A stretch of DNA of 34,083 nucleotides from Cyclobacteriaceae bacterium (GTDB lineage Bacteria; Bacteroidota; Bacteroidia; Cytophagales; Cyclobacteriaceae), in contig JALONI010000024.1 in assembly GCA_025455015.1 (NCBI GenBank), positions 1 to 34,083 on the forward strand, given 5' to 3'. Below, piece by piece: positions 12,378 to 22,316 of this stretch; position 1 is the first letter of the stretch, and each line of letters begins with the position of its first letter. A model generated the notes under the pieces. That model ran no database searches. It had not been told where the DNA came from and saw only the letters and a program-made list of their open reading frames with translations. Both the position numbers and the translations under genes were made by a program.

Positions 12378-13625
12378 CTATACCAGGTACTCAAACAAGT
12401 TCTCGTTTGGATTGATTTCTGTGTAGTTCAGTTTGTAGTGCTGCATACGGCCGAGCAGCGCTTCGTAGTCTTCGCGGGCTTTCAACTCAATGCCAATCAG
12501 CGCAGGGCCGCTCTCTTTGTTGTGTTTTTGGATAAACTCAAACCGGACAATGTCATCGGTGGGCCCCAGGATGAAGTTGACAAACTCTTTTAAGGCCCCG
12601 GGGCGTTGTGCAAAGCGCACAATGAAATAGTGTTTGAGCCCTTCGTACAACAAGGAACGCTCTTTGATTTCCTGCATGCGGTCGATGTCGTTGTTGCCAC
12701 CGCTGAGTATGCACACGACCTTTTTGCCTTTAATCACCTCCGCATATTGGTCCAGGGCGGCAATGGTGAGCGCGCCTGCGGGTTCCGCTACAATGGCATC
12801 TTCGTTGTACAATTGCAAGATGGTAGAACTTACTTTTCCTTCCGGCACCAATAACATGTCGGCCAGCGTGTCTTTGCAAATCTGGAAGGTAAGATCGCCT
12901 ACTTTTTTGACCGAGGCACCATCCACAAATCGCTGAATGCTGTCCAGCATAACCGGTTTGCCCGCTTTGAGTGCTTCTTTCATGGAAGGCGCGCCTTGCG
13001 GCTCCACCCCGATGATTTTGGTGTGAGGCGAGTAGGTCTTGAAATAGTGGGCCACGCCCGCGCACAGACCGCCACCGCCTACCGGAACGAAGACAAAATC
13101 AATATCGGATTGCTCCTCCAGTATTTCTTTAGCCACGGTGCCCTGCCCTTCAATGGTTTTCCAATGGTCGAACGGGGGAACAAAGACCCGGTTATGCTCC
13201 TCGCAAAACCGAAGCGCATGATCCTGGCATTCATCAAACGTATCGCCAATCAGCACGATCTCAATCAAGCCATTGCCAAACATTTTCACCTGATTGATTT
13301 TTTGTTTGGGCGTAATGGCGGGCATGTAGATGACGCCCCGGATGTGGAGCAACTTGCACGAGAGCGCCACCCCCTGCGCGTGGTTTCCCGCGCTGGCACA
13401 CACCACCCCCTTATTTCGCTGCTCGGCCGAGAGGCTTTGAATCAAATTGTACGCCCCGCGGATTTTGTATGACCGCACCACCTGCAAATCTTCGCGTTTC
13501 AAAAACACCTCGGCCCTCCACCGCGCGGATAGCTTGTGGTGAAATTGCAACGGAGTTTTGAGCACGATGTTTTTTAACACCAAGTGCGCCCGGTGAATGT
13601 CGATATCCGGTGTGAGGGTTACCAT
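12378..13625 (-). CDS. ilvA: Threonine ammonia-lyase (threonine dehydratase), biosynthetic
   Basis: 415 aa. It deaminates threonine to 2-oxobutyrate, the first committed step to isoleucine. The PLP lysine is Lys54 in R-S-Y-K-I-R-G-A, the phosphate loop is G-G-G-G-L (183-187), and S-A-G-N-H-A-Q-G-V-A is at 78-87. Residues 330-415 make one ACT-type regulatory domain (H-Y-F-I-V-R-F-A-Q-R-P-G-A-L), so this is the shorter form with a single regulatory domain rather than the two of E. coli IlvA; feedback control by isoleucine is expected but not visible in sequence. Last gene of the ilv operon, 67 bp after ilvC; a repeat-rich spacer separates them. Confidence 0.95.
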   Translation of the reverse strand: MVTLTPDIDIHRAHLVLKNIVLKTPLQFHHKLSARWRAEVFLKREDLQVVRSYKIRGAYNLIQSLSAEQRNKGVVCASAGNHAQGVALSCKLLHIRGVIYMPAITPKQKINQVKMFGNGLIEIVLIGDTFDECQDHALRFCEEHNRVFVPPFDHWKTIEGQGTVAKEILEEQSDIDFVFVPVGGGGLCAGVAHYFKTYSPHTKIIGVEPQGAPSMKEALKAGKPVMLDSIQRFVDGASVKKVGDLTFQICKDTLADMLLVPEGKVSSTILQLYNEDAIVAEPAGALTIAALDQYAEVIKGKKVVCILSGGNNDIDRMQEIKERSLLYEGLKHYFIVRFAQRPGALKEFVNFILGPTDDIVRFEFIQKHNKESGPALIGIELKAREDYEALLGRMQHYKLNYTEINPNENLFEYLV

Positions 13626-13634
13626 TTTTTAAAC

Positions 13635-13693
13635 GTAGGCAGTAGGCAAATGGCAATAGGCCATATTGCCCCTTGCCTACTGCATTTGCCTAC
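13635..13693. repeat. Imperfect inverted/direct repeats between ilvC and ilvA
   Basis: The ilvC-ilvA spacer is built from short units: GTAGGCAGTAGGCAAA at 13635-13650 and TTGCCTACTGC plus TTTGCCTAC on the other side, with GGCAATAGGCC near the centre. The two sides can pair partially into a stem. It could weakly attenuate read-through into ilvA, or be a dispersed intergenic repeat. Only the symmetry is seen. Confidence 0.5.
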
Positions 13694-14763
13694 TAGTTAA
13701 TCATGCTCGCTTCCACCTTCTCCTTCTCGGGTCTTAACGCGCGCACGGCAGCACCGGCTTGCCACAACTCGCTTTCGCGAAGTTCTTTCAACTCTTCGGC
13801 CAGCTTTTCGCGGTAGTCGGGTTTGCTGCACGTCTCGATTGTTCGCTTCGCTTCTGCCCCGCTGGCCACGCTTTCGTACAGTTCTTTAAACACGGGCAAC
13901 GTAGCGGCTTTGAATTTCTTTTTCCAATCCAACGCCCCGCGTTGTGCCGTGGTGGAGCAGTTGGCATACATCCAATCCATGCCGTTCTCGGCCACCAGGG
14001 GCATCAGGCTTTGGGTAAGTTCTTCCACGGTTTCGTTGAAGGCCTCAGAGGGCGAGTGGCCTTTGGATCGCAGCACTTCATACTGCGCTTCAAAGATGCC
14101 GGCAATGGCGCCCATGAGCGTGCCGCGTTCGCCTGTCAGGTCGCTGTACACTTCTTTTTTGAAGTCTGTTTCGAACAGATAGCCCGAGCCCACGCCAATG
14201 CCCAAGGCAATGGCGCGTATTTTGGCTTGGCCTGTGGCATCCTGAAATACGGCATAGCTGGAGTTGATGCCCTTGCCCTGTAAAAATAGTCTGCGCACAG
14301 ACGTGCCCGAGCCTTTCGGGGCGGCCAAAATCACGTCTACATCAGCCGGGGGGATAATGCCCGTTTGCTCTTTGAATGTGATACCAAAGCCGTGTGAAAA
14401 ATAGAGTGCTTTGCCTTTGGTGAGGTAAGGCTTGATAACCGGCCATGTCTCAATCTGGCCGGCATCGCTCATCAAAAACTGGATGATGGTTCCGCGCTTG
14501 GCGGCCTCGGCAATGTCAAACAGCGTTTCACCCGGCACCCAGCCGTGGGCCATGGCTTTGTCCCATGTTTTGGTGCCCTGGCGTTGCCCCACAATGATGG
14601 AGAAGCCATTGTCGCGCAGGTTCAATGCCTGGGCCGGCCCTTGCACGCCATAGCCTATGATGGCGATGGTTTCGTTTCGCAACACGTCCAATGCTTTGTT
14701 CATCGGGAATTCCTCGCGGGTCACCACTTCTTCAAAGGTGCCGCCAAAATTGATCTTTGCCAT
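13693..14763 (-). CDS. ilvC: Ketol-acid reductoisomerase, class I
   Basis: 356 aa. It converts 2-acetolactate and 2-aceto-2-hydroxybutyrate to the dihydroxy acids using NADPH and Mg2+. The Rossmann N-domain has I-A-I-I-G-Y-G-V-Q-G-P-A-Q-A and V-G-Q-R-Q-G-T-K-T-W, a phosphate-binding loop with R and T that fits NADPH preference. The knotted C-domain has S-D-L-T-G-E-R-G and E-x-L-T-Q-S-L, which supply the metal-binding acids, and the Y-A-N-C-S-T-T-A-Q-R-G block. The length and one knotted domain fit class I. Start ATG at 14763; 47 bp after ilvN. Confidence 0.95.
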   Translation of the reverse strand: MAKINFGGTFEEVVTREEFPMNKALDVLRNETIAIIGYGVQGPAQALNLRDNGFSIIVGQRQGTKTWDKAMAHGWVPGETLFDIAEAAKRGTIIQFLMSDAGQIETWPVIKPYLTKGKALYFSHGFGITFKEQTGIIPPADVDVILAAPKGSGTSVRRLFLQGKGINSSYAVFQDATGQAKIRAIALGIGVGSGYLFETDFKKEVYSDLTGERGTLMGAIAGIFEAQYEVLRSKGHSPSEAFNETVEELTQSLMPLVAENGMDWMYANCSTTAQRGALDWKKKFKAATLPVFKELYESVASGAEAKRTIETCSKPDYREKLAEELKELRESELWQAGAAVRALRPEKEKVEASMIN

Positions 14764-14810: not shown

Positions 14811-15101
14811 TCAGTCCACGTCCACGATGCGCTCGCTCATGTCAAAGTACACGTGGCTGCCGCTAAAGATTTTTACTTCTTCTACTTCGATAAGTTTTTC
14901 CAGTTGCAGGCGTACTTTCTCAACCAAATCAGGGGTGGTGAAAACGAGCATGACCACGCCCCCGCGTTTAAAATCCTCTTCGTTTTCGTGGGCCATCAGT
15001 TTTTTGATGCGCACGCGCCTGCGGTTGAGCACGTTGATGATGCGGTTCAACACCGAAAAATTATTGTCGGCCAGCAACGTCAGGGTGAATTCTTCTTTCA
15101 T
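14811..15101 (-). CDS. ilvN: Acetolactate synthase small (regulatory) subunit, short form
   Basis: 96 aa, a single ACT domain (E-E-F-T-L-T-L-L-A-D-N, F-S-V-L-N-R-I-I-N-V-L-N-R-R-R-V, ending in D-V-D). The start ATG at 15101 overlaps the ilvB stop in ATGA; a longer upstream in-frame reading would run inside ilvB and does not resemble the family. The subunit normally activates IlvB and confers valine feedback control. At 96 residues it lacks the C-terminal half found in typical IlvH/IlvN (about 160 residues or more) and resembles the short IlvM type of E. coli (about 87 residues). Confidence 0.9.
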   Translation of the reverse strand: MKEEFTLTLLADNNFSVLNRIINVLNRRRVRIKKLMAHENEEDFKRGGVVMLVFTTPDLVEKVRLQLEKLIEVEEVKIFSGSHVYFDMSERIVDVD

Positions 15102-16864
15102 GACGCGCGGTTTTTTTGAGGTATTTCCAAAATCACCTCCGCTACGCCTGCCCCCGCGGGTACCATCGGGAATACATTGTCTTCTTTTTCGACCACCACC
15201 TCCAGGAAGTAAGCAGAGGCTGCGTCCAGCATGTTCTCCAAAGCCGCTTTCAAGTCCTTTTGGTGCGTGACCTTGTCGGCACGGATGTGATACGCCTCCG
15301 CGATTTTGATGAAGTCGGGGTTGCGCATTTCGGTAAACGAATAGCGCTTGCCGTGGAACAGTTGCTGCCACTGCCGTACCATTCCCAAAAAATTGTTGTT
15401 CAGCACCAATATCTTCACGGGGATTTCATACTCCATGATGGTGCCCAACTCCTGGATGGTCATTTGATAGCCACCATCGCCAATGATGGCAATGACCTGC
15501 TTGTCGGGTGCGGCTACTTTGGCCCCGAGTGCCGCGGGCAGCGCAAAGCCCATGGTGCCCGCACCGCCCGAGGTGATGCTGGTGCGTGGATTTTTGTATT
15601 GGTAGTAGCGTGAAGTCACCATTTGATGTTGGCCCACATCGGTTACCACCACGGCCTTGCCTTGTGTGAGCTCGGATAGCATGTAGACCACCTCTGCCAT
15701 CTTCAGGCTGTTGGTGTTGCTGATTTCTTTCTCCACCACTTTCTCAAACTCTTCCTGATTGAGCCGCGTAAAGCTGGCAATCCAGTCGGGATAGCGATTG
15801 GCAGAACACAACGGTGTCAGCGCGGTCAACGCTTCTTTGGCATCGGCATGGATGGCCACCTCAGCCCGGATGATTTTGTTGATCTCGGCTTTATCCAACT
15901 CCACATGGATCACCTTGGCTTGTTTGGCGTATTTGCTCACGTTGCCCGTCACGCGATCGTCAAAGCGCATGCCCACCGCAATGAGCACATCGCATTCGTT
16001 GGTGTTGATGTTGGGGCCATAGTTGCCGTGCATGCCCAGGTAGCCTACGTAGTTGGGGTGGTCGGTAGGAAACGCCCCAAGCCCCAACAGCGTGCTTGCC
16101 ACGGGAATGCCCGTTTTCTCAGAAAAGGCAATCAGCTCTTGTGTGGCGTTGGCCAACAATACTCCTTGCCCGGCCAGTAAATAGGGGCGTTTGGCTTGGT
16201 TGATGAGCGTGGCGGCTGCCTGCACATCTGCCATTGACAAAACCGGCTTGGGTTGGTAAGTGCGAACGTGGGTACATGGCACGTACGGCTCTTCTTCGAT
16301 CAGTTCGTTCTGTGCATTTTTTGTGATGTCCACCAGCACGGGCCCGGGCCGGCCGCTGGCAGCAATGTAAAAGGCTTTGGCAATGGCCGGGGCAATGTCC
16401 TTGGCTTCGGTGACTTGCACATTCCACTTGGTGACGGGCAGCGTGGTGTTGATAACGTCTGTTTCCTGAAAGGCATCGGTACCCAGCAAATGGGCAAATA
16501 CCTGACCGGTGATGCACACCACGGGGGTTGAGTCGATCAAGGCATCGGCCAGCCCGGTGACCAGGTTGGTGGCACCTGGCCCGGAGGTGGCAAACACCAC
16601 ACCTGTCTTTCCGGACACCCGTGCATAGCCTTGGGCCGCATGGATGGCCCCTTGCTCATGCCGCACTAAAAAGTGTTTGAGTTTGTCGGCATACGAATAC
16701 AGCGCATCGTACACGGGCATAATGGCACCACCGGGGTAGCCGAAGATGTGCTCCACGTTTTCTTCCACCAGGCAACGGAGCAATAATTCCGACCCCGTGA
16801 TTTTCACGGCAGCCTTCATCGCCACCTCTTCTCGTTTTTCAATCTCGGTTGCTACCATTGTCAT
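15098..16864 (-). CDS. ilvB: Acetolactate synthase large (catalytic) subunit
   Basis: 588 aa from ATG 16864 (an alternative ATG at 16858 differs by two residues, and M16 opens the conserved part). It condenses pyruvate with pyruvate or 2-oxobutyrate using TPP, Mg2+ and FAD. The N-domain has F-G-Y-P-G-G-A-I-M-P and the catalytic glutamate in V-R-H-E-Q-G-A-I-H-A-A-Q-G-Y-A-R. The central domain has the FAD region G-M-H-G-N-Y and M-R-F-D-D-R-V-T-G. The C-domain has the TPP motif G-D-G-G-Y-Q-M-T-I-Q-E-L followed by N-N-N-F-L-G-M-V-R-Q-W-Q. A complete enzyme. Located 70 bp after ilvD, overlapping ilvN. Confidence 0.96.
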   Translation of the reverse strand: MTMVATEIEKREEVAMKAAVKITGSELLLRCLVEENVEHIFGYPGGAIMPVYDALYSYADKLKHFLVRHEQGAIHAAQGYARVSGKTGVVFATSGPGATNLVTGLADALIDSTPVVCITGQVFAHLLGTDAFQETDVINTTLPVTKWNVQVTEAKDIAPAIAKAFYIAASGRPGPVLVDITKNAQNELIEEEPYVPCTHVRTYQPKPVLSMADVQAAATLINQAKRPYLLAGQGVLLANATQELIAFSEKTGIPVASTLLGLGAFPTDHPNYVGYLGMHGNYGPNINTNECDVLIAVGMRFDDRVTGNVSKYAKQAKVIHVELDKAEINKIIRAEVAIHADAKEALTALTPLCSANRYPDWIASFTRLNQEEFEKVVEKEISNTNSLKMAEVVYMLSELTQGKAVVVTDVGQHQMVTSRYYQYKNPRTSITSGGAGTMGFALPAALGAKVAAPDKQVIAIIGDGGYQMTIQELGTIMEYEIPVKILVLNNNFLGMVRQWQQLFHGKRYSFTEMRNPDFIKIAEAYHIRADKVTHQKDLKAALENMLDAASAYFLEVVVEKEDNVFPMVPAGAGVAEVILEIPQKNRAS

Positions 16865-16934: not shown

Positions 16935-18608
16935 TCAGTCCTCGTCCGTCACGCATCCTTCAGCCGCGGTTTTCACCAGCTTCGCGTACTTGTACAAGAT
17001 GCCGTGGTTTACGCGCAGCGGCTTGGGTTTGTATTGCGATCTGCGAATCGCCAGTGTCTTTTCATCCACCAGCAGATTGATTTGGTGTTTTTTTACATCA
17101 ATCTCGATCCAGTCACCGTCTTCTACCAAGGCCAGTAGCCCCCCGTCAAACGCTTCGGGTGTGATGTGGCCGATGACGAAGCCATGTGAGCCTCCGCTGA
17201 AACGACCATCGGTGATGAGGGCCACACTTTTGCCCAGGCCGGAGCCCATGATGAGCGAAGTGGGCTTCAACATCTCGGGCATGCCGGGGGCTCCCTTGGG
17301 CCCCACGTAGCGGATTACCACCACATCGCCCTCGTTGATTTTTCCTGACTGGATGCCATCCACCAACTCAAATTCACCATTGAACACGCGGGCCGTTCCT
17401 TTGAATCGCTCCCCTTCTTTTCCGGTTATCTTGGCCACCGATCCTTTTTCGGCCAGGTTGCCGTACAGAATCTGAAGATGGCCTGTTTTCTTTAACGCGC
17501 GCTCTACGGGTACCATCACGTCTTGCTTTTCAAAGTCCAGGTCGTGGGCGGGCGCGATATTTTCCGCCACCGTTTTTCCGGTCACCGTCAGGCAGTCGCC
17601 ATGCAGATATCCTTTTTGCCACAGGTACTTCATCACGGCCGGCACGCCACCGATTTTGTGTACCGCTTCCATCAGGTATTTGCCACTGGGTTTCAGGTCG
17701 CCCAGCAGCGGGGTCTTGTCTGAAATCCGCTGGAAGTCGTCTTGTGTCAAAGACAAGCCCACACTTTTGGCCATGGCGATGAGGTGCAACACGGCATTGG
17801 TGGACCCTCCCAGTACCATCACGAGCGTAATGGCATTTTCAAATGCCTGGCGCGTCATGATGTCGCGCGGCTTGATGTCTTTTTCCAGCAGCAGCCGAAT
17901 GGCTTTGCCGGCTTCGACACACTCGTTCGATTTTTCCTGGCTCAACGCAGGGTTGGACGAAGAGTAGGGCAACGCCATGCCCAGGGCCTCGATGGCCGAA
18001 GCCATGGTATTGGCCGTGTACATGCCCCCACACGCGCCCGCACCCGGACAAGAGTTTTGAATGATGCCCTTGAAGTCCTCTTCGGAAAGCTGGCCTTTGA
18101 TTTTTTCGCCCAGGGCCTCAAACGCTGAGATGATGTTCAGTTCTTTGCCCTTGTAATGTCCACCGGCAATGGTGCCTCCGTACACCATGATGGCCGGCCG
18201 ATTCAGCCTTCCCATCGCAATCAACGACCCGGGCATGTTTTTGTCGCACCCCACCACGGCAATGAGGCCGTCATAATATTGGGCTCCGCATACGGTTTCA
18301 ATCGAATCGGCAATGACATCGCGGCTCACCAGCGAGTAGCGCATTCCTTCCGTGCCGTTGGCGATGCCATCGCTGACGCCAATGGTGTGAAACACCAGCC
18401 CCACCAGCTCTTGGTCCCACACGGCCTGCTTCACTTCGCGCGCCAGATCGTTCAAATGCATGTTGCACGTGTTGCCATCAAAGCCGGTGCTCACAATGCC
18501 AACTTGTGCTTTTTTTAAATCCTGCTCTGACAGCCCTATGCCGTATAGCATCGCTTGCGAAGCAGGCAGTGTCGGGTCTTGGGTAATGGTGCGGCTGTAT
18601 TTGTTCAT
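16935..18608 (-). CDS. ilvD: Dihydroxy-acid dehydratase
   Basis: 557 aa. It dehydrates 2,3-dihydroxy-3-methylvalerate and dihydroxyisovalerate to the 2-oxo acids, using a [2Fe-2S] or [4Fe-4S] cluster and Mg2+. Cluster and metal residues are visible: Cys48 in D-G-N-T-C-N-M-H, Cys121 in [10 protein letters not shown], and the [16 protein letters not shown] block near residue 187-202. The C-part has [16 protein letters not shown]. The start is taken at ATG 18608 (M-N-K-Y-S-R); a TTG two codons upstream is less likely. It lies 16 bp after ilvE, so the two are surely co-transcribed. Confidence 0.95.
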
Positions 18609-18624
18609 GGTCAAAACCGGGCGG

Positions 18625-19512
18625 TTATACGATCACGTAGCTGTAACTCTTGTCCAGCACAATACACTGGTAGGCTTCCTGCACCACTGCACCCAGCGAT
18701 GACTTCCAGGGTTTGCGGAACGGCTGGCCTTCCACCGATTGAATGCTGATGACTTCGGCAGCCGTGCCGCAGAAAAAGGCACTGTCTGCATCGAATAGGT
18801 CCTCTACCCGAAAGAGGCGTTCCTCCACCGGAATTTCCAACTCGTGACAAATTTCCAAGACCGTGGCTCGGGTAATGCCGGGTAAAATATTTCCCAACGG
18901 GGGGGTGTAGAGCACTCCGTCTTTCTCAAAAAAGAAGTTGGCACCGGGCCCCTCGGCCACATAGCCTTTGGCATCCAGCATGAGGGCCTCGTCAAAGCCG
19001 CGCTCGCGGGCCTCGGTGGTAGCCAAAATCGAGTTGACGTAATGACCGCACACTTTGGCCTCCACATGCACCGACTTAGGATTGGGCCGCTGATAGGAAG
19101 ACACGCACACGCGCAAGGGTTGATCCCCCAGGTATTTGCCCCATTCCCAGGCAGCGATCATCACCGATACCTCTTTGGGCGCAGTCAACGACATGTTGGG
19201 GCTTGCATACACCAACGGCCGCACGTACGCATTGGTGAGCTTGTTTCGCTCCAGTACCTGGTAGCTGATCTGAGTCAACTCTTCCGCGGTGTAGTGAAAG
19301 GGTATGTTGATGAGGGCACAGCTTTTGCGCAACCGTTCAAAATGCTCGTGGGCCTTGAATATCTTAACACCATTGATGGTTTGGTAGGCCCGGATGCCCT
19401 CAAACGTGCCGTAACCATAATGCAGGGTTTGGCTGAACAGGTCAATGCGCGCGTCTTTGGCTTTTACGAATTTTCCATCGAGGAAGAGTACCGTTTGGTC
19501 GTTGTAGTACAT
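18625..19512 (-). CDS. ilvE: Branched-chain amino acid aminotransferase
   Basis: 295 aa, fold-type IV PLP aminotransferase that transfers the amino group between glutamate and the branched-chain 2-oxo acids. The PLP lysine is Lys153 in [14 protein letters not shown]. Further marks are [14 protein letters not shown] near 30-43 and [22 protein letters not shown] at 172-194. First structural gene of the operon, start ATG at 19512. It sits just downstream of an attenuator terminator (19562-19587) and leader peptide (19613-19717), so expression should follow branched-chain amino acid supply. Confidence 0.95.
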
Positions 19513-19561
19513 GGTTTTTTTTTGAACAATCGTTAGTTGGTTACCAAGGCCATAAAATAAA

Positions 19562-19587
19562 ACCGTCCCGCGGGTGGGCGGGACGGT
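19562..19587 (-). terminator. Attenuator terminator of the ilv operon
   Basis: On the minus strand ACCGTCCCGC, loop CCACCC, GCGGGACGGT form a perfect 10-bp GC-rich stem followed directly by TTTATTTTAT. It lies 25 nt after the leader peptide stop and 49 nt before the ilvE start, where a transcription attenuator must be. No gene other than the leader ends before it, so its likely role is conditional termination. Confidence 0.85.
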
Positions 19588-19634
19588 CTTTTGTTTCTTT
19601 TGCTCAACAACGTCACCAGCCCCGTTTATGCGGG
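19580..19634 (-). promoter_or_regulatory. Antiterminator and pause-hairpin region of the ilv leader
   Basis: On the transcript, GGGGCUGGU (19623-19615, the last leader codons and stop) can pair with ACCGUCCC (19587-19580), the 5' arm of the terminator: eight pairs, one G-U, and one bulged U. The same GGGG can instead pair with CCCG of codons 28-29 (19634-19631) in a small hairpin. The structures exclude each other, as in classical attenuators. A ribosome stalled at the Leu/Ile/Val codons would cover CCCG and favour the antiterminator, while one at the stop codon would cover GGGGCUGGU and let the terminator form. Pairing is read by eye, without energy calculation. Confidence 0.65.
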
Positions 19635-19717
19635 AGTAGAATGACGCTGATAATCACAAGCACGCGACTGATCGAAATCAGACTCGTGTTTAAAAATGAC
19701 TCGCTGAAAAACTTCAT
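19613..19717 (-). CDS. ilv operon leader peptide (attenuation control)
   Basis: 34 codons from ATG 19717 to TGA 19613. Codons 13-28 read L-I-S-I-S-R-V-L-V-I-I-S-V-I-L-L: 12 of 16 are Leu, Ile or Val, the amino acids that depend on the operon behind it. The peptide ends P-H-K-R-G-W. It precedes a strong terminator and ilvE, and it lies in its own gap between glmM and ilvE, so no other gene explains it. Such peptides are translated as sensors and have no further function. The stretch of branched-chain codons is far beyond chance, and the stop lies in the antiterminator arm as expected. Confidence 0.85.
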   Translation of the reverse strand: MKFFSESFLNTSLISISRVLVIISVILLPHKRGW

Positions 19718-19830
19718 GACTCTTTTTTCTCTTGTGCGCTTACAAGATTGCAGAATTTATTCTGTTCCAACAACGGGCAGCGCACAAAAAATTTTGGATA
19801 GACATGAACGGTTGTTAGCCAAAACACTTG
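19718..19830 (-). promoter_or_regulatory. Probable ilv promoter region
   Basis: The 113-bp gap between the glmM stop and the leader ATG must hold the ilv promoter unless transcription reads through from the upstream genes. On the minus strand TTTG near 19789 is followed by TAAATTCT near 19758, loosely like the Bacteroidota -33 TTTG and -7 TAnnTTTG boxes with a long spacer. TTGTGCGC/GCGCACAA (19732-19739 and 19780-19787) and CAGAAT-AA-ATTCTG (19751-19764) are inverted repeats around it. Confidence 0.3.
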
Positions 19831-21216
19831 TTAGGAAGCCAGGCTTTTGATGTCATCCATGATTCGCTGTGCCAACGCGTTGGCCTTTTTCTCGTTTTGC
19901 GACTCGGCATAAATGCGGATGATGGGCTCGGTGTTGGACTTACGCAGGTGAACCCATTCTCTGGCGGACTCAAAGTCGATTTTCACACCGTCAGCGGTGT
20001 TGATTTTTTCGTGTGCGTACCGGGCCTTCACTTTTTCCAAAATACCGTCCACGTCCAGCCCGGGGGTTAGTTCGATCTTGTTTTTCGAGATGAAGTAGGA
20101 GGGATAGCGGGCACGCAGGGCCGAGGCTTTCAGCTTGGATTTGGCCAGGTGCGAAAGAAACAGGGCGATGCCGATCAGCGCATCGCGCCCGTAGTGAAAG
20201 TCGGGCACAATGATGCCCCCATTACCTTCGCCACCAATCACGGCCTTGGTTTCTTTCATGGCCGTCACCACATTTACCTCACCCACGGCCGCTGCCGTGT
20301 AGGTGCCCTTGGCCTTTTCGGTGATGTCGCGCAGGGCGCGCGTGGATGACAAGTTGGATACGGTGTTGCCCTTTCGTTTGGACAATAGATAGTCGGCCAC
20401 CGCCACCAGCGTATACTCTTCGCCAAACGGCTTGCCATCTTCCTGGATCAACGCCAGCCGGTCCACGTCCGGATCAACCACAATGCCCAAGTCACACCTC
20501 TCTTTTTTTACTTTTTTGGCGATGGCGGTCAAGTGCTCGGGCAGCGGTTCGGGGTTGTGGGGGAAGTACCCCGTTGGGTCGCAATACAACTCCACTACCT
20601 TTTTTACGCCCAGGGCCTTTAGCAACTTGGGCACGGCCACGCCACCGGTGGAGTTGACCGCATCCACCGCGATTTTGAATTTTGCTTTCTTGATCGCCTT
20701 TACATCCACCCACTTGTATTGCAAAATCAGGTCGATGTGTTTTTGAATGTATTTGTCTTTTTTTGTGTAGCTGCCCAGCGCCTCCACCTCGCTGAAAACA
20801 AAATCCTCGGCTTGTGCCCGCCTCAGTACTTCGGCTCCATCCGCAGCCGATATGAACTCTCCCTTTTCGTTCAACAGCTTGAGTGCATTCCACGGCATGG
20901 GGTTGTGGCTGGCGGTGAGGATGATGCCTCCGTGGGCTTTTTCCCATGTCACGGCCAGTTCTACCGTGGGGGTGGTGGACAAGCCCAGGTCGATGACGTT
21001 CAGCCCCAGGCTTTGCAGGGTGGCGGCCACCAGTTGGCTCACCGTTTCGCCCGACAATCGAGCATCGCGGCCGATCACGATTTTTTTGCCTTTTCGGGAT
21101 TGCACCCAGCTACCAAAAGCCGCAGCAAACTTTACCACGTCTACAGGGGTGAGGTTATCACCTGGTTTTCCGCCAATCGTTCCGCGGATGCCGGAGATGG
21201 ATTTGATCAGTGTCAC
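19831..21216 (-). CDS. glmM: Phosphoglucosamine mutase / phosphohexomutase family
   Basis: 461 aa from a GTG at 21216, chosen because it directly precedes the conserved opening T-L-I-K-S-I-S-G-I-R-G-T; the upstream 19 codons have no family features. It has the phosphoserine loop L-T-A-S-H-N-P (Ser103), the metal loop D-P-D-V-D-R (248-253), the sugar loop G-E-G-N-G-G, and the phosphate loop R-K-S-N-T-E-P-I-I-R. The reaction is glucosamine 6-phosphate to glucosamine 1-phosphate for peptidoglycan and LPS precursors, with phosphoglucomutase or phosphomannomutase activity possible. The W-N-A-L-K in place of Y-N-G after the serine loop is the form usual for GlmM-like enzymes of this phylum. 26 bp after aguA on the same strand. 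Confidence 0.88.
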   Translation of the reverse strand: MTLIKSISGIRGTIGGKPGDNLTPVDVVKFAAAFGSWVQSRKGKKIVIGRDARLSGETVSQLVAATLQSLGLNVIDLGLSTTPTVELAVTWEKAHGGIILTASHNPMPWNALKLLNEKGEFISAADGAEVLRRAQAEDFVFSEVEALGSYTKKDKYIQKHIDLILQYKWVDVKAIKKAKFKIAVDAVNSTGGVAVPKLLKALGVKKVVELYCDPTGYFPHNPEPLPEHLTAIAKKVKKERCDLGIVVDPDVDRLALIQEDGKPFGEEYTLVAVADYLLSKRKGNTVSNLSSTRALRDITEKAKGTYTAAAVGEVNVVTAMKETKAVIGGEGNGGIIVPDFHYGRDALIGIALFLSHLAKSKLKASALRARYPSYFISKNKIELTPGLDVDGILEKVKARYAHEKINTADGVKIDFESAREWVHLRKSNTEPIIRIYAESQNEKKANALAQRIMDDIKSLAS

Positions 21217-21242
21217 AGTATGCAAAGTTAAACGATACTTGA

Positions 21243-22316
21243 TTAAACGGCCGGCTCCTGCTGGCTGAGGCAATGAAACGACCCCAACCCCCAGATGATA
21301 TCGGTAGAGTCAATGCCTACTACTTTTCGGTCGGGGAAGCAATCTTGCAAAATGCCGAGTGCCTTGTCATCGTTGCGATCGCGGAAGGTGGGTACCACCA
21401 CATGCTTGTTGGCAATGTAGAAGTTGGCGTACGAGGCCGGCAGCCGCTGTCCTTCGTATTCCACGGGCGAAGGCATCGGAAGTTCTACGATGTTCAATGG
21501 CCGTCCGTTTTCGAGGCGCAGGGAGTGCAGTTCTTTGAGATTTTCCTTCAACAAGTGGTAGTTCGCGTCATGCGCGTGGTCTTCCACGAGGGTGACTACC
21601 GTGTCGGCATTCACAAAGCGGGTCAGGTCGTCAATGTGGCCATCGGTATCATCGCCCACAATGCCATCGCCCAGCCAAAGAATATGGTCTACCCCATAAA
21701 ACCGGATCAGGTATTCTTCAATTTGTTTTTGGCTCAGGTGCGGATTGCGGTTGGGGTTCAGCAAACAGGCACGGGTGGTGAGCAGCGTTCCCTTGCCGTT
21801 GAATTCCACCGAGCCGCCTTCCATGACGATGCCGGGATGCACAACGGGCCATCCAAAATGGTGGGCGATCAAGGTAGGGATGACATCGTCCAGGTCGTAG
21901 GGAGGATATTTGCCGCCCCAGGCATTGTAGCCCCAGTCGACAATCATTTTTTTCTTTTCGGTGCGGTGAATCAGAAAGGCCGGGCCGTGATCGCGGCACC
22001 ACGCATCGTTGGTGGGGTGGAAATAGAATTCGACTTTGGAGAGATCTGCTCCGGCTTTGGCCAGGTGGTTCGTGGCTTTTTGTTTCATCGGTTCATCGGC
22101 CACATTGATGCGCACGATTTCGCCTTCGGCCACGTACTTGACAAACTCCGCATAACGCGGGTAGATGGTTTCAATTTTTCCCGGCCAGGAAGCTTCCTTG
22201 TGCGGCCAGCTCAGCCACGTAGCTTCGTGAGGGGCAAATTCAGCGGGGAAGTAGTAGCCTGACTGCTTGGGAGAGTCCGTAAGTCCGAAAGACGGAAAGT
22301 TGGATAACTGATTCAT
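21243..22316 (-). CDS. aguA: Agmatine deiminase
   Basis: 357 aa. It hydrolyses agmatine to N-carbamoylputrescine and ammonia, the second step of the arginine-decarboxylase route to putrescine. Of the guanidine-modifying superfamily, it has W-L-S-W-P at 34-38, W-C-R-D-H-G-P near 106-112, M-E-G-G-S-V-E-F near 165-172, D-T-D-G-H-I-D-D with His227, and the catalytic Cys349 in G-L-G-S-F-H-C-L-S-Q-Q-E-P. The start ATG at 22316 overlaps the stop of the preceding four-helix-bundle gene; the frame extends upstream inside that gene but has no family similarity there. It shares a strand with aguB, whose product acts next. Confidence 0.95.
   Translation of the reverse strand: MNQLSNFPSFGLTDSPKQSGYYFPAEFAPHEATWLSWPHKEASWPGKIETIYPRYAEFVKYVAEGEIVRINVADEPMKQKATNHLAKAGADLSKVEFYFHPTNDAWCRDHGPAFLIHRTEKKKMIVDWGYNAWGGKYPPYDLDDVIPTLIAHHFGWPVVHPGIVMEGGSVEFNGKGTLLTTRACLLNPNRNPHLSQKQIEEYLIRFYGVDHILWLGDGIVGDDTDGHIDDLTRFVNADTVVTLVEDHAHDANYHLLKENLKELHSLRLENGRPLNIVELPMPSPVEYEGQRLPASYANFYIANKHVVVPTFRDRNDDKALGILQDCFPDRKVVGIDSTDIIWGLGSFHCLSQQEPAV

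Follow-up and report, generated by a model that had tools for sequence, protein, structure and literature searches.

A predicted ribosome-mediated attenuator before the branched-chain amino-acid operon of a Cyclobacteriaceae bacterium, shared by its genus and flanked by operator-like palindromes

The 34,083-nucleotide stretch of Cyclobacteriaceae DNA analyzed here (hereafter the window) very probably carries, judging from its sequence and that of its relatives, a classical ribosome-mediated transcription attenuator before the operon ilvE-D-B-N-C-A. As an attenuator it is ordinary in kind and of a type common in Bacteroidota. To this the present analysis adds palindromic sites, which lie on both sides of the attenuator and which the initial annotation did not contain.

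All the elements of the locus lie on the minus strand and succeed one another in the following order: the end of an upstream gene (19831), two palindromic sites, a promoter-like site, the leader ORF, the terminator, a third palindrome and ilvE. The last of these, encoding the branched-chain transaminase (18625..19512; NCBIfam TIGR01122, 292 bits, cut-off 245.55), is followed by: ilvD (16935..18614; TIGR00110, 721 bits); ilvB for the acetolactate synthase large subunit (15098..16864; TIGR00118, 715 bits); a probable ilvN/ilvH for the small subunit (ORF at 14811..15371, identified by reading alone, the true start being within the ORF); ilvC (13693..14763; TIGR00465, 320 bits); and ilvA for threonine ammonia-lyase (12378..13625; TIGR02079, 637 bits). 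Reading alone identifies the gene upstream (19831-21273) as phosphomannomutase-like; it is co-directional with ilv and ends about 240 nt ahead of the terminator. Bacteroidota promoters have a -33 element with the consensus TTG, and the best promoter-like site of a heuristic scan, predicted 5' of the leader at 19743..19773, takes the form TTG-N20-CAATCTTG, with the TTG at 19773-19771, a 20-bp spacer and the -7 element at 19750-19743. For the latter, the pertinent passage of a transcriptome study gives the Bacteroidota consensus as TAnnTTTG (PMC9723704).

Direct reading bears out the leader ORF proposed in the initial annotation, a minus-strand frame of 34 codons at 19613..19717 (MKFFSESFLNTSLISISRVLVIISVILLPHKRGW), of which codons 13-28 comprise 12 Leu, Ile or Val in 16. 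When the 200 nt preceding the terminator are shuffled with dinucleotides preserved, 300 times as for every locus, this figure is never reached. Codons 28-29 are CTC CCG, and the stop codon TGA (19615-19613) comes directly after CGGGGCUGG; it lies, as had been claimed, within segment 2, and its U is paired in the antiterminator fold. The best 16-codon stretches of the 31 same-genus leaders hold 7 to 12 branched-chain codons, as against at least nine in 148 of 9300 shuffles and at least 11 in 7 of 9300, and for three leaders taken singly, L004, L023 and L027, shuffling equals the count 16, 26 and 21 times in 300, respectively. These shuffles and the counterparts in relatives together rule out a chance ORF.

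Three RNA structures compete in this region. The 3:4 intrinsic terminator with its T-rich tail occupies 19552..19590 of the minus strand; in its core stem (19562-19587) the 10 base pairs originally described are present, with ACCGTCCCGC at 19587-19578 facing GCGGGACGGT at 19571-19562 and the T-rich tail coming after, and the fold gives a stem of 13 pairs when A-U and G-U pairs are counted. The start of ilvE at 19512, placed 49 nt after 19562, also reads as reported. The 2:3 antiterminator (19579..19624, minus strand; folding z of -1.76 in the window) consists of an outer helix, CGGGGC-GGU (19624-19615) with ACC-GUCCCG (19587-19579), and an inner helix, UUGUU:AACAA (19610-19606 with 19595-19591). 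It contains the anticipated pairing of segment 2 with the 5' arm of the terminator, GGGGC-U-GGU with ACC-GUCCC and one bulged U, which the fold lengthens by one pair (CGGGGC:GUCCCG) and by the inner helix. The third structure had been described as an alternative pairing of GGGG with CCCG; that pairing exists, but the 1:2 hairpin, or anti-antiterminator (19608..19649, minus strand; folding z of -2.68), is bigger, also joining CAGCGUCA with UGACGUUG beside the CUCCCG/CGGGG part. The leader as a whole folds with z = -4.4, which none of 200 shuffles equaled. The antiterminator excludes the terminator and the 1:2 hairpin excludes the antiterminator, so that the mutual exclusion asserted at the outset is upheld by the folds and by compensatory changes.

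These changes, which had been proposed as a check, occur in all three structures in an alignment of 31 homologous same-genus leaders, that of the window and 30 relatives; from the 39 order-level loci it omits four without a similar leader (L032, L047, L050 and L055) and four with unrelated leaders (L048, L049, L051 and L052). Recurrent in the 31 are the leader with its stop within segment 2 and each of the three RNA structures. Across these loci the antiterminator has a mean folding z of -3.20, negative in 30 of 31 and weak in L018 (-0.56) and L053 (-0.93), and the 1:2 hairpin a mean of -1.31, negative in 26. In the terminator, 99.4% of alignment cells are paired, against 30-57% in slid controls; three pairs in 13 cells are changed on both sides, the mean of shuffled alignments being 3.3 cells, and the pair types, 7 in all, do not outnumber those of shuffles (7.6). 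The antiterminator, in which CGGGGC-GU aligns as pairing with AC-GCCCCG, has 91.9% of cells paired, against 90.3% in shuffled and 29-56% in slid versions, with double-sided changes at three pairs and in five cells, where shuffles average 0.9 cells; its inner helix differs among species, being GAUAUU:GAUAUU in several and UUGUU:AACAA in the window. For the 1:2 hairpin the figures are 83.1% against 36-59% in slid controls, with double-sided changes at six pairs and in 15 cells, where shuffles average 7.1 cells; the number of pairs does not set this structure apart, since its slid versions reach 4-6. Related sequences may exceed shuffles, and the shuffle comparisons of alignments are to be read with that proviso. 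In all three structures the covariation score and the share of cells paired are lower for the slid controls.

The attenuator reading is carried by this anatomy, conservation and covariation, to which the stalling and read-through known of ribosomes at E. coli attenuators would be added by analogy. Transcription probably begins about 20 nt 5' of the leader gene. With Leu-, Ile- and Val-tRNAs charged, the ribosome would reach the stop codon within segment 2 (CGGGGCUGGUGA), and since the TGA directly follows CGGGGCUGG a ribosome terminating there should mask this segment; segments 3 and 4 would then form the terminator, and transcription would stop ahead of ilvE. If any of the three amino acids is short, the ribosome would stall in codons 13-28, and segment 2, left uncovered, would pair with the terminator's 5' arm, whereupon transcription would continue into ilvEDBNCA. 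If the leader remains untranslated, the 1:2 hairpin would be expected to form and the terminator to win. T-box or riboswitch control was set aside, a search of the window against Rfam having returned no match at gathering score.

Other loci were surveyed with a detector that takes at least eight Leu, Ile or Val per 16 codons and a terminator 5-70 nt past the stop. Relatives mostly retain the branched-chain codons together with the stem, in agreement with the initial annotation: the detector was positive at 34 of 39 order-level ilvE loci, the window's included, and in 3 of 1560 shuffled controls; the five loci without a detected leader are L004, L032, L047, L050 and L055. In a class-level sample of 149 genomes, the 30 ilvD or ilvE loci examined (E <= 1e-100) gave 17 positives, the own locus among them, against 7 of 1200 shuffles; five (L148-L151 and L153) are doubtful, either as poor fits or as the ends of longer ORFs situated upstream, and without them the count is 12 of 30. 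At two loci, L156 and L162, there are by eye apparently two leader-plus-terminator units in tandem before one ilv operon. Among ilvE loci of public genomes (the best 80 of 186 matches), a leader and terminator were found at 69, a count that has no shuffled control, includes genomes of the earlier sample (L220 is the contig of G007) and takes in two doubtful cases with a gap of 50 nt (L243 and L244); three loci carry titles of other phyla (L262, L289 and L298), and without these it is 68 of 77. The public locus L219 (84% IlvE identity) was missed by the detector, and has by eye a leader ending in LVLRNLLILPPAG and an imperfect terminator; L231 has a terminator and a poor leader. The loci L238-L280, mostly from Flavobacteriia, show Ile-dominated ilvE leaders such as MKNLSIIPSIIIVNVIITSARGML, often 200-360 nt before ilvE, which suggests an intervening gene or a second element. 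Given so wide a detection, the attenuator of the window belongs to a group that is widespread and has been little described.

The attenuator is bracketed by operator-like sites of the form CTAAC-N4-GTT, found by motif search on the minus strand. One lies between the terminator and the ilvE start (19525..19536; central GATT) and a second 5' of the putative promoter (19807..19818; central AACC), both conserved in position, and a third overlaps the stop codon of the upstream gene (19823..19834; central AAGT). The motif CTAACNNNNGTT occurs three times in the 34-kb window, always in the ilv control region, with 0.5 expected and three reached in 1 of 100 shuffles. A site starts 14-29 bp before ilvE at 32 of 32 same-genus loci (the 31 aligned ones and L047, the other seven order-level loci being left out), and L047 (G016) keeps it ahead of ilvE with no recognizable leader. 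A further site starts 277-322 bp before ilvE at 26 of the 31 same-genus loci with enough sequence. By the promoter heuristic, this upstream site lies 45-49 bp before the -33 element at 19 of 31 loci; the spacing is 35, 38, 7, 7 and 138 in five others, and seven have none. In the same best 80 of 186 public-genome matches the near-start site is seen at 18 loci, all of close relatives. Helical phasing as a sign of DNA looping was considered and left unused, as the 26 site pairs give R = 0.39 for all four periods, uncorrected for relatedness.

Genome-wide, AACTAACGATTGTT occurs exactly twice in the 3.4-Mb genome, ahead of ilvE and ahead of leuC. All 14 exact copies of CCTAACATTCGTTA are at ilvE, and of 32 exact copies of AAACTAACGATTGTT 18 are at ilvE, 13 at leuC (judged in relatives by reading-frame start) and one elsewhere (G025:C83), this search having yielded 60 for the motif against 43 for its reversed control. 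The exact motif is found in 6 of 118 family genomes, of which G000, the own genome, and G201 are of the same genus and the other four may be chance. Looser matching is uninformative: with two mismatches the motif gives 14 against 17 for the reversed control, in a further search with mismatches allowed 49 against 113 (rows summed), and the bare palindrome gives two places in the own genome, both strands being counted, where reversed controls give 3 and 3, and 12 matches at 11 places in relatives against 57. The evidence of the motif is thus the place of its exact copies, as bare palindromes and inexact matches are not enriched. Lrp was dropped as a candidate owner: an Lrp/AsnC-like gene lies about 400 bp from a two-mismatch site (L042), which is no evidence, such sites being no commoner than the reversed control.

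Of the 11 palindrome places in relatives, six are before a second branched-chain transaminase gene, two between a TetR-family gene and paaA, and three elsewhere. In the own genome, the perfect palindrome CTAACAATTGTTAG stands before the second transaminase gene (L044 1503-1516, G000:C115:11718; TIGR01123, 332 bits), and CTAAC-N4-GTTAG with a variable center precedes this gene in 6 of 12 relatives searched; the other full palindrome of the own genome (C66:11221) is at an unrelated gene. As to leuC, its 15 control regions (L002 at about 1350-1547 in G000:C12, L116-L121 and L123-L130) show a terminator, by eye before the site and with a poor T-tail in L123, together with PaaR-like sites; they were picked by motif, so that their near-start sites are not independent evidence. 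The own region (L002) has a candidate leader with 8 Leu in 28 codons and a TTG start, and none of the other 14 surpasses the 7 Leu in 32 codons of L124. We do not claim leader-peptide attenuation at leu, a good Leu-rich ORF being present in the own genome's region only. The leuC regions of seven relatives share a strongly conserved stretch (GATTACCCAATAACCTAACCTAAACCT; CCAATAACCTAACCTAAACCT) ahead of the terminator, with neither a long ORF nor a Leu-rich leader ORF.

The sites resemble operators of PaaR of Thermus thermophilus (TTHA0973), a repressor of phenylacetate degradation that responds to phenylacetyl-CoA. Its operator is given as AACnAACGTTnGTT (PMC6651687, PMC9493321), and the ilvE site, AACTAACGATTGTT, agrees with this at 11 of the 12 bases specified and with an older form, CNAACGNNCGTTNG, at 8 of 10; a native site, AACGGCCGTTAGTT (PMC6651687), includes AACGGCCGTTAG, the very site found before paaA in the own genome. 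PaaR too is of the TetR family, with its gene adjoining phenylacetate genes. The targets named for it in the pertinent passages are phenylacetate genes, with no branched-chain target among them. The own genome encodes a TetR-family protein (G000:C151:10234-10815) followed by paaA (TIGR02156, 316 bits, cut-off 280), with one site 109 bp 5' of the TetR gene and the other between the two genes; a palindrome is likewise placed between a TetR-family gene and paaA in G007 and in G028 (PaaA 450 bits). Against NCBIfam the TetR protein gave only sub-cut-off matches (FadR-like, 52.6 bits, cut-off 200), and the PDB chains that match it best are regulators of the TetR family, some of them FadR-like.

At 30 TetR loci, from 40 genomes matched, 14 have a site at most 260 bp 3' of the TetR gene; a paaA-like start is 3' of it at 15, 13 of these with a site. 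Among the same loci, a site at most 200 bp 5' of the gene is seen at the own locus only. In two genomes a one-mismatch copy of the motif (G012:C83:166017 and G011:C144:18552) is situated some 258 bp upstream of the TetR gene, apparently inside a neighboring gene. All 36 same-genus genomes are positive for the TetR orthologue (G003 with a fragment only), as are 4 of 22 other genomes of the order, and two class-level genomes have distant matches (35 and 27%). Motif matches adjoin the orthologue in two of the four other families that have one, about 25 bp away in G041 and 39 bp in G046; they lie elsewhere in G044, and G047 has none. Within the family, G201 and G071 combine an ilv site, by eye, with the TetR gene (84 and 77%), and G145 and G174 have neither a site before ilvD by eye nor a TetR gene at E 1e-15.

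Hence, from the likeness of the sites to the PaaR operator and from the TetR/paaA neighborhood, we suggest that they may be operators of a PaaR-like repressor. It is an even question, on this reading of the sequences, whether such a TetR protein provides a second layer of control by binding the sites that flank the promoter-attenuator segment; the wider proposal, that a PaaR-type regulator was recruited in this genus to branched-chain synthesis and binds ilv, leu and second-transaminase operators, we likewise hold at about one chance in two. On the PaaR-type reading, a protein on the DNA about 75 bp 5' of the predicted start would be combined with a ribosome-sensing RNA switch, the DNA site directly past the terminator might serve as a roadblock or a looping partner, and one control region would read both acyl-CoA state and tRNA charging. 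Only slightly less probable than an even bet is that the CTAAC-N4-GTT sites serve some other regulator, or act as signals in RNA or for translation: there could be TetR paralogues with similar specificity, at leuC the site directly adjoins the start codon, inexact copies are no commoner than reversed controls, and G046 and G047 have the TetR gene yet, by eye, no strict ilvE site. Set against this are the half-sites, which are fixed around a variable 4-bp center as in a DNA palindrome, the striking placement of the exact copies at ilvE and leuC, and the sites between the TetR gene and paaA and beside the distant orthologues in G041 and G046.

The steadiness of the ilvE-adjacent site also bears on the attenuator. 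It exceeds that of the leader, the site being kept even at the leaderless same-genus locus, and G007, one of the window's two closest relatives (L004 = L220, 83% IlvE identity), has 7 branched-chain codons in 16 and an antiterminator that, with z of +1.15, is no better than shuffles. These observations would fit an attenuator decaying in the lineage, with a DNA-binding regulator now in control and the RNA element becoming a relic; we consider this unlikely for the window, in which all three structures and the 12 of 16 codons are intact. More improbable still is that the leader peptide acts otherwise, whether through reinitiation or translational coupling at ilvE or by sensing a small molecule in the ribosome while nascent. 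Its tail is strongly alike across much of the genus (VIILRKPGL or VIILRKPGW), which can be explained by its overlap with the RNA helices, and outside the genus tails differ (LLPIVG, IPLRG, ITSARGML) while the branched-chain codons persist; further, leader genes near a gene may boost its expression via reinitiation, but the stop lies 100 nt from ilvE, as against a Bacteroidetes peak of 11-14 bp in the pertinent passage of PMC4833913. That the terminator merely ends transcription of the co-directional upstream gene, the small ORF being incidental, is scarcely credible, since at 28 further ilvE loci inspected (L015 with 228 nt upstream only) that gene was not found upstream while leader and terminator persist, whence the terminator belongs to ilv, and since relatives share both the ORF and covarying alternative helices.

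The attenuator of the window is like that of E. coli ilvGMEDA (ilvL) in its multivalent Leu/Ile/Val leader, its mutually exclusive structures and its terminator before the first structural gene, features well known from that system; it is unlike it in sequence, phylum, the order ilvE-D-B-N-C-A and the flanking operator-like palindromes. Bacteroidota also possess the Bacteroid-trp motif, an attenuator and likewise an RNA element of this phylum, with a name pointing to an amino-acid operon; the window, by contrast, has no Rfam match. The attenuation survey of Lopatovskaya et al. (2010) may list Bacteroidota cases. The relevant entry of PMC2864571 presents the Bacteroid-trp motif (RF01692) as a candidate cis-regulatory RNA of Bacteroidetes. 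For Flavobacterium psychrophilum, of the same phylum, the pertinent passage of its transcriptome paper proposes the same kind of mechanism, leader-peptide attenuation before amino-acid operons, naming neither ilv nor covariation (PMC9723704); its ilvE (L274) has the leader MRKFNIIPSIIIAIVIITTAKGML, different from that of the window, and a terminator. For Corynebacterium ilvBNC, of another phylum and another operon order, a leader ORF or hairpins are reported to have been proposed before the branched-chain operon (PMC10272879, PMC11857589). Titles and abstract openings of open-licence papers yielded neither an ilv attenuator described for Cytophagales nor a link of PaaR to branched-chain synthesis.

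The window thus adds for Bacteroidota a branched-chain attenuator described in its anatomy and supported by covariation; judging from the survey, leader-peptide attenuation of ilvE-led operons is probably common in this phylum and not a proteobacterial specialty. Should the flanking sites prove to be operators of the PaaR type, a regulator of the catabolism of aromatics and acyl-CoA would in addition be coupled to amino-acid synthesis.
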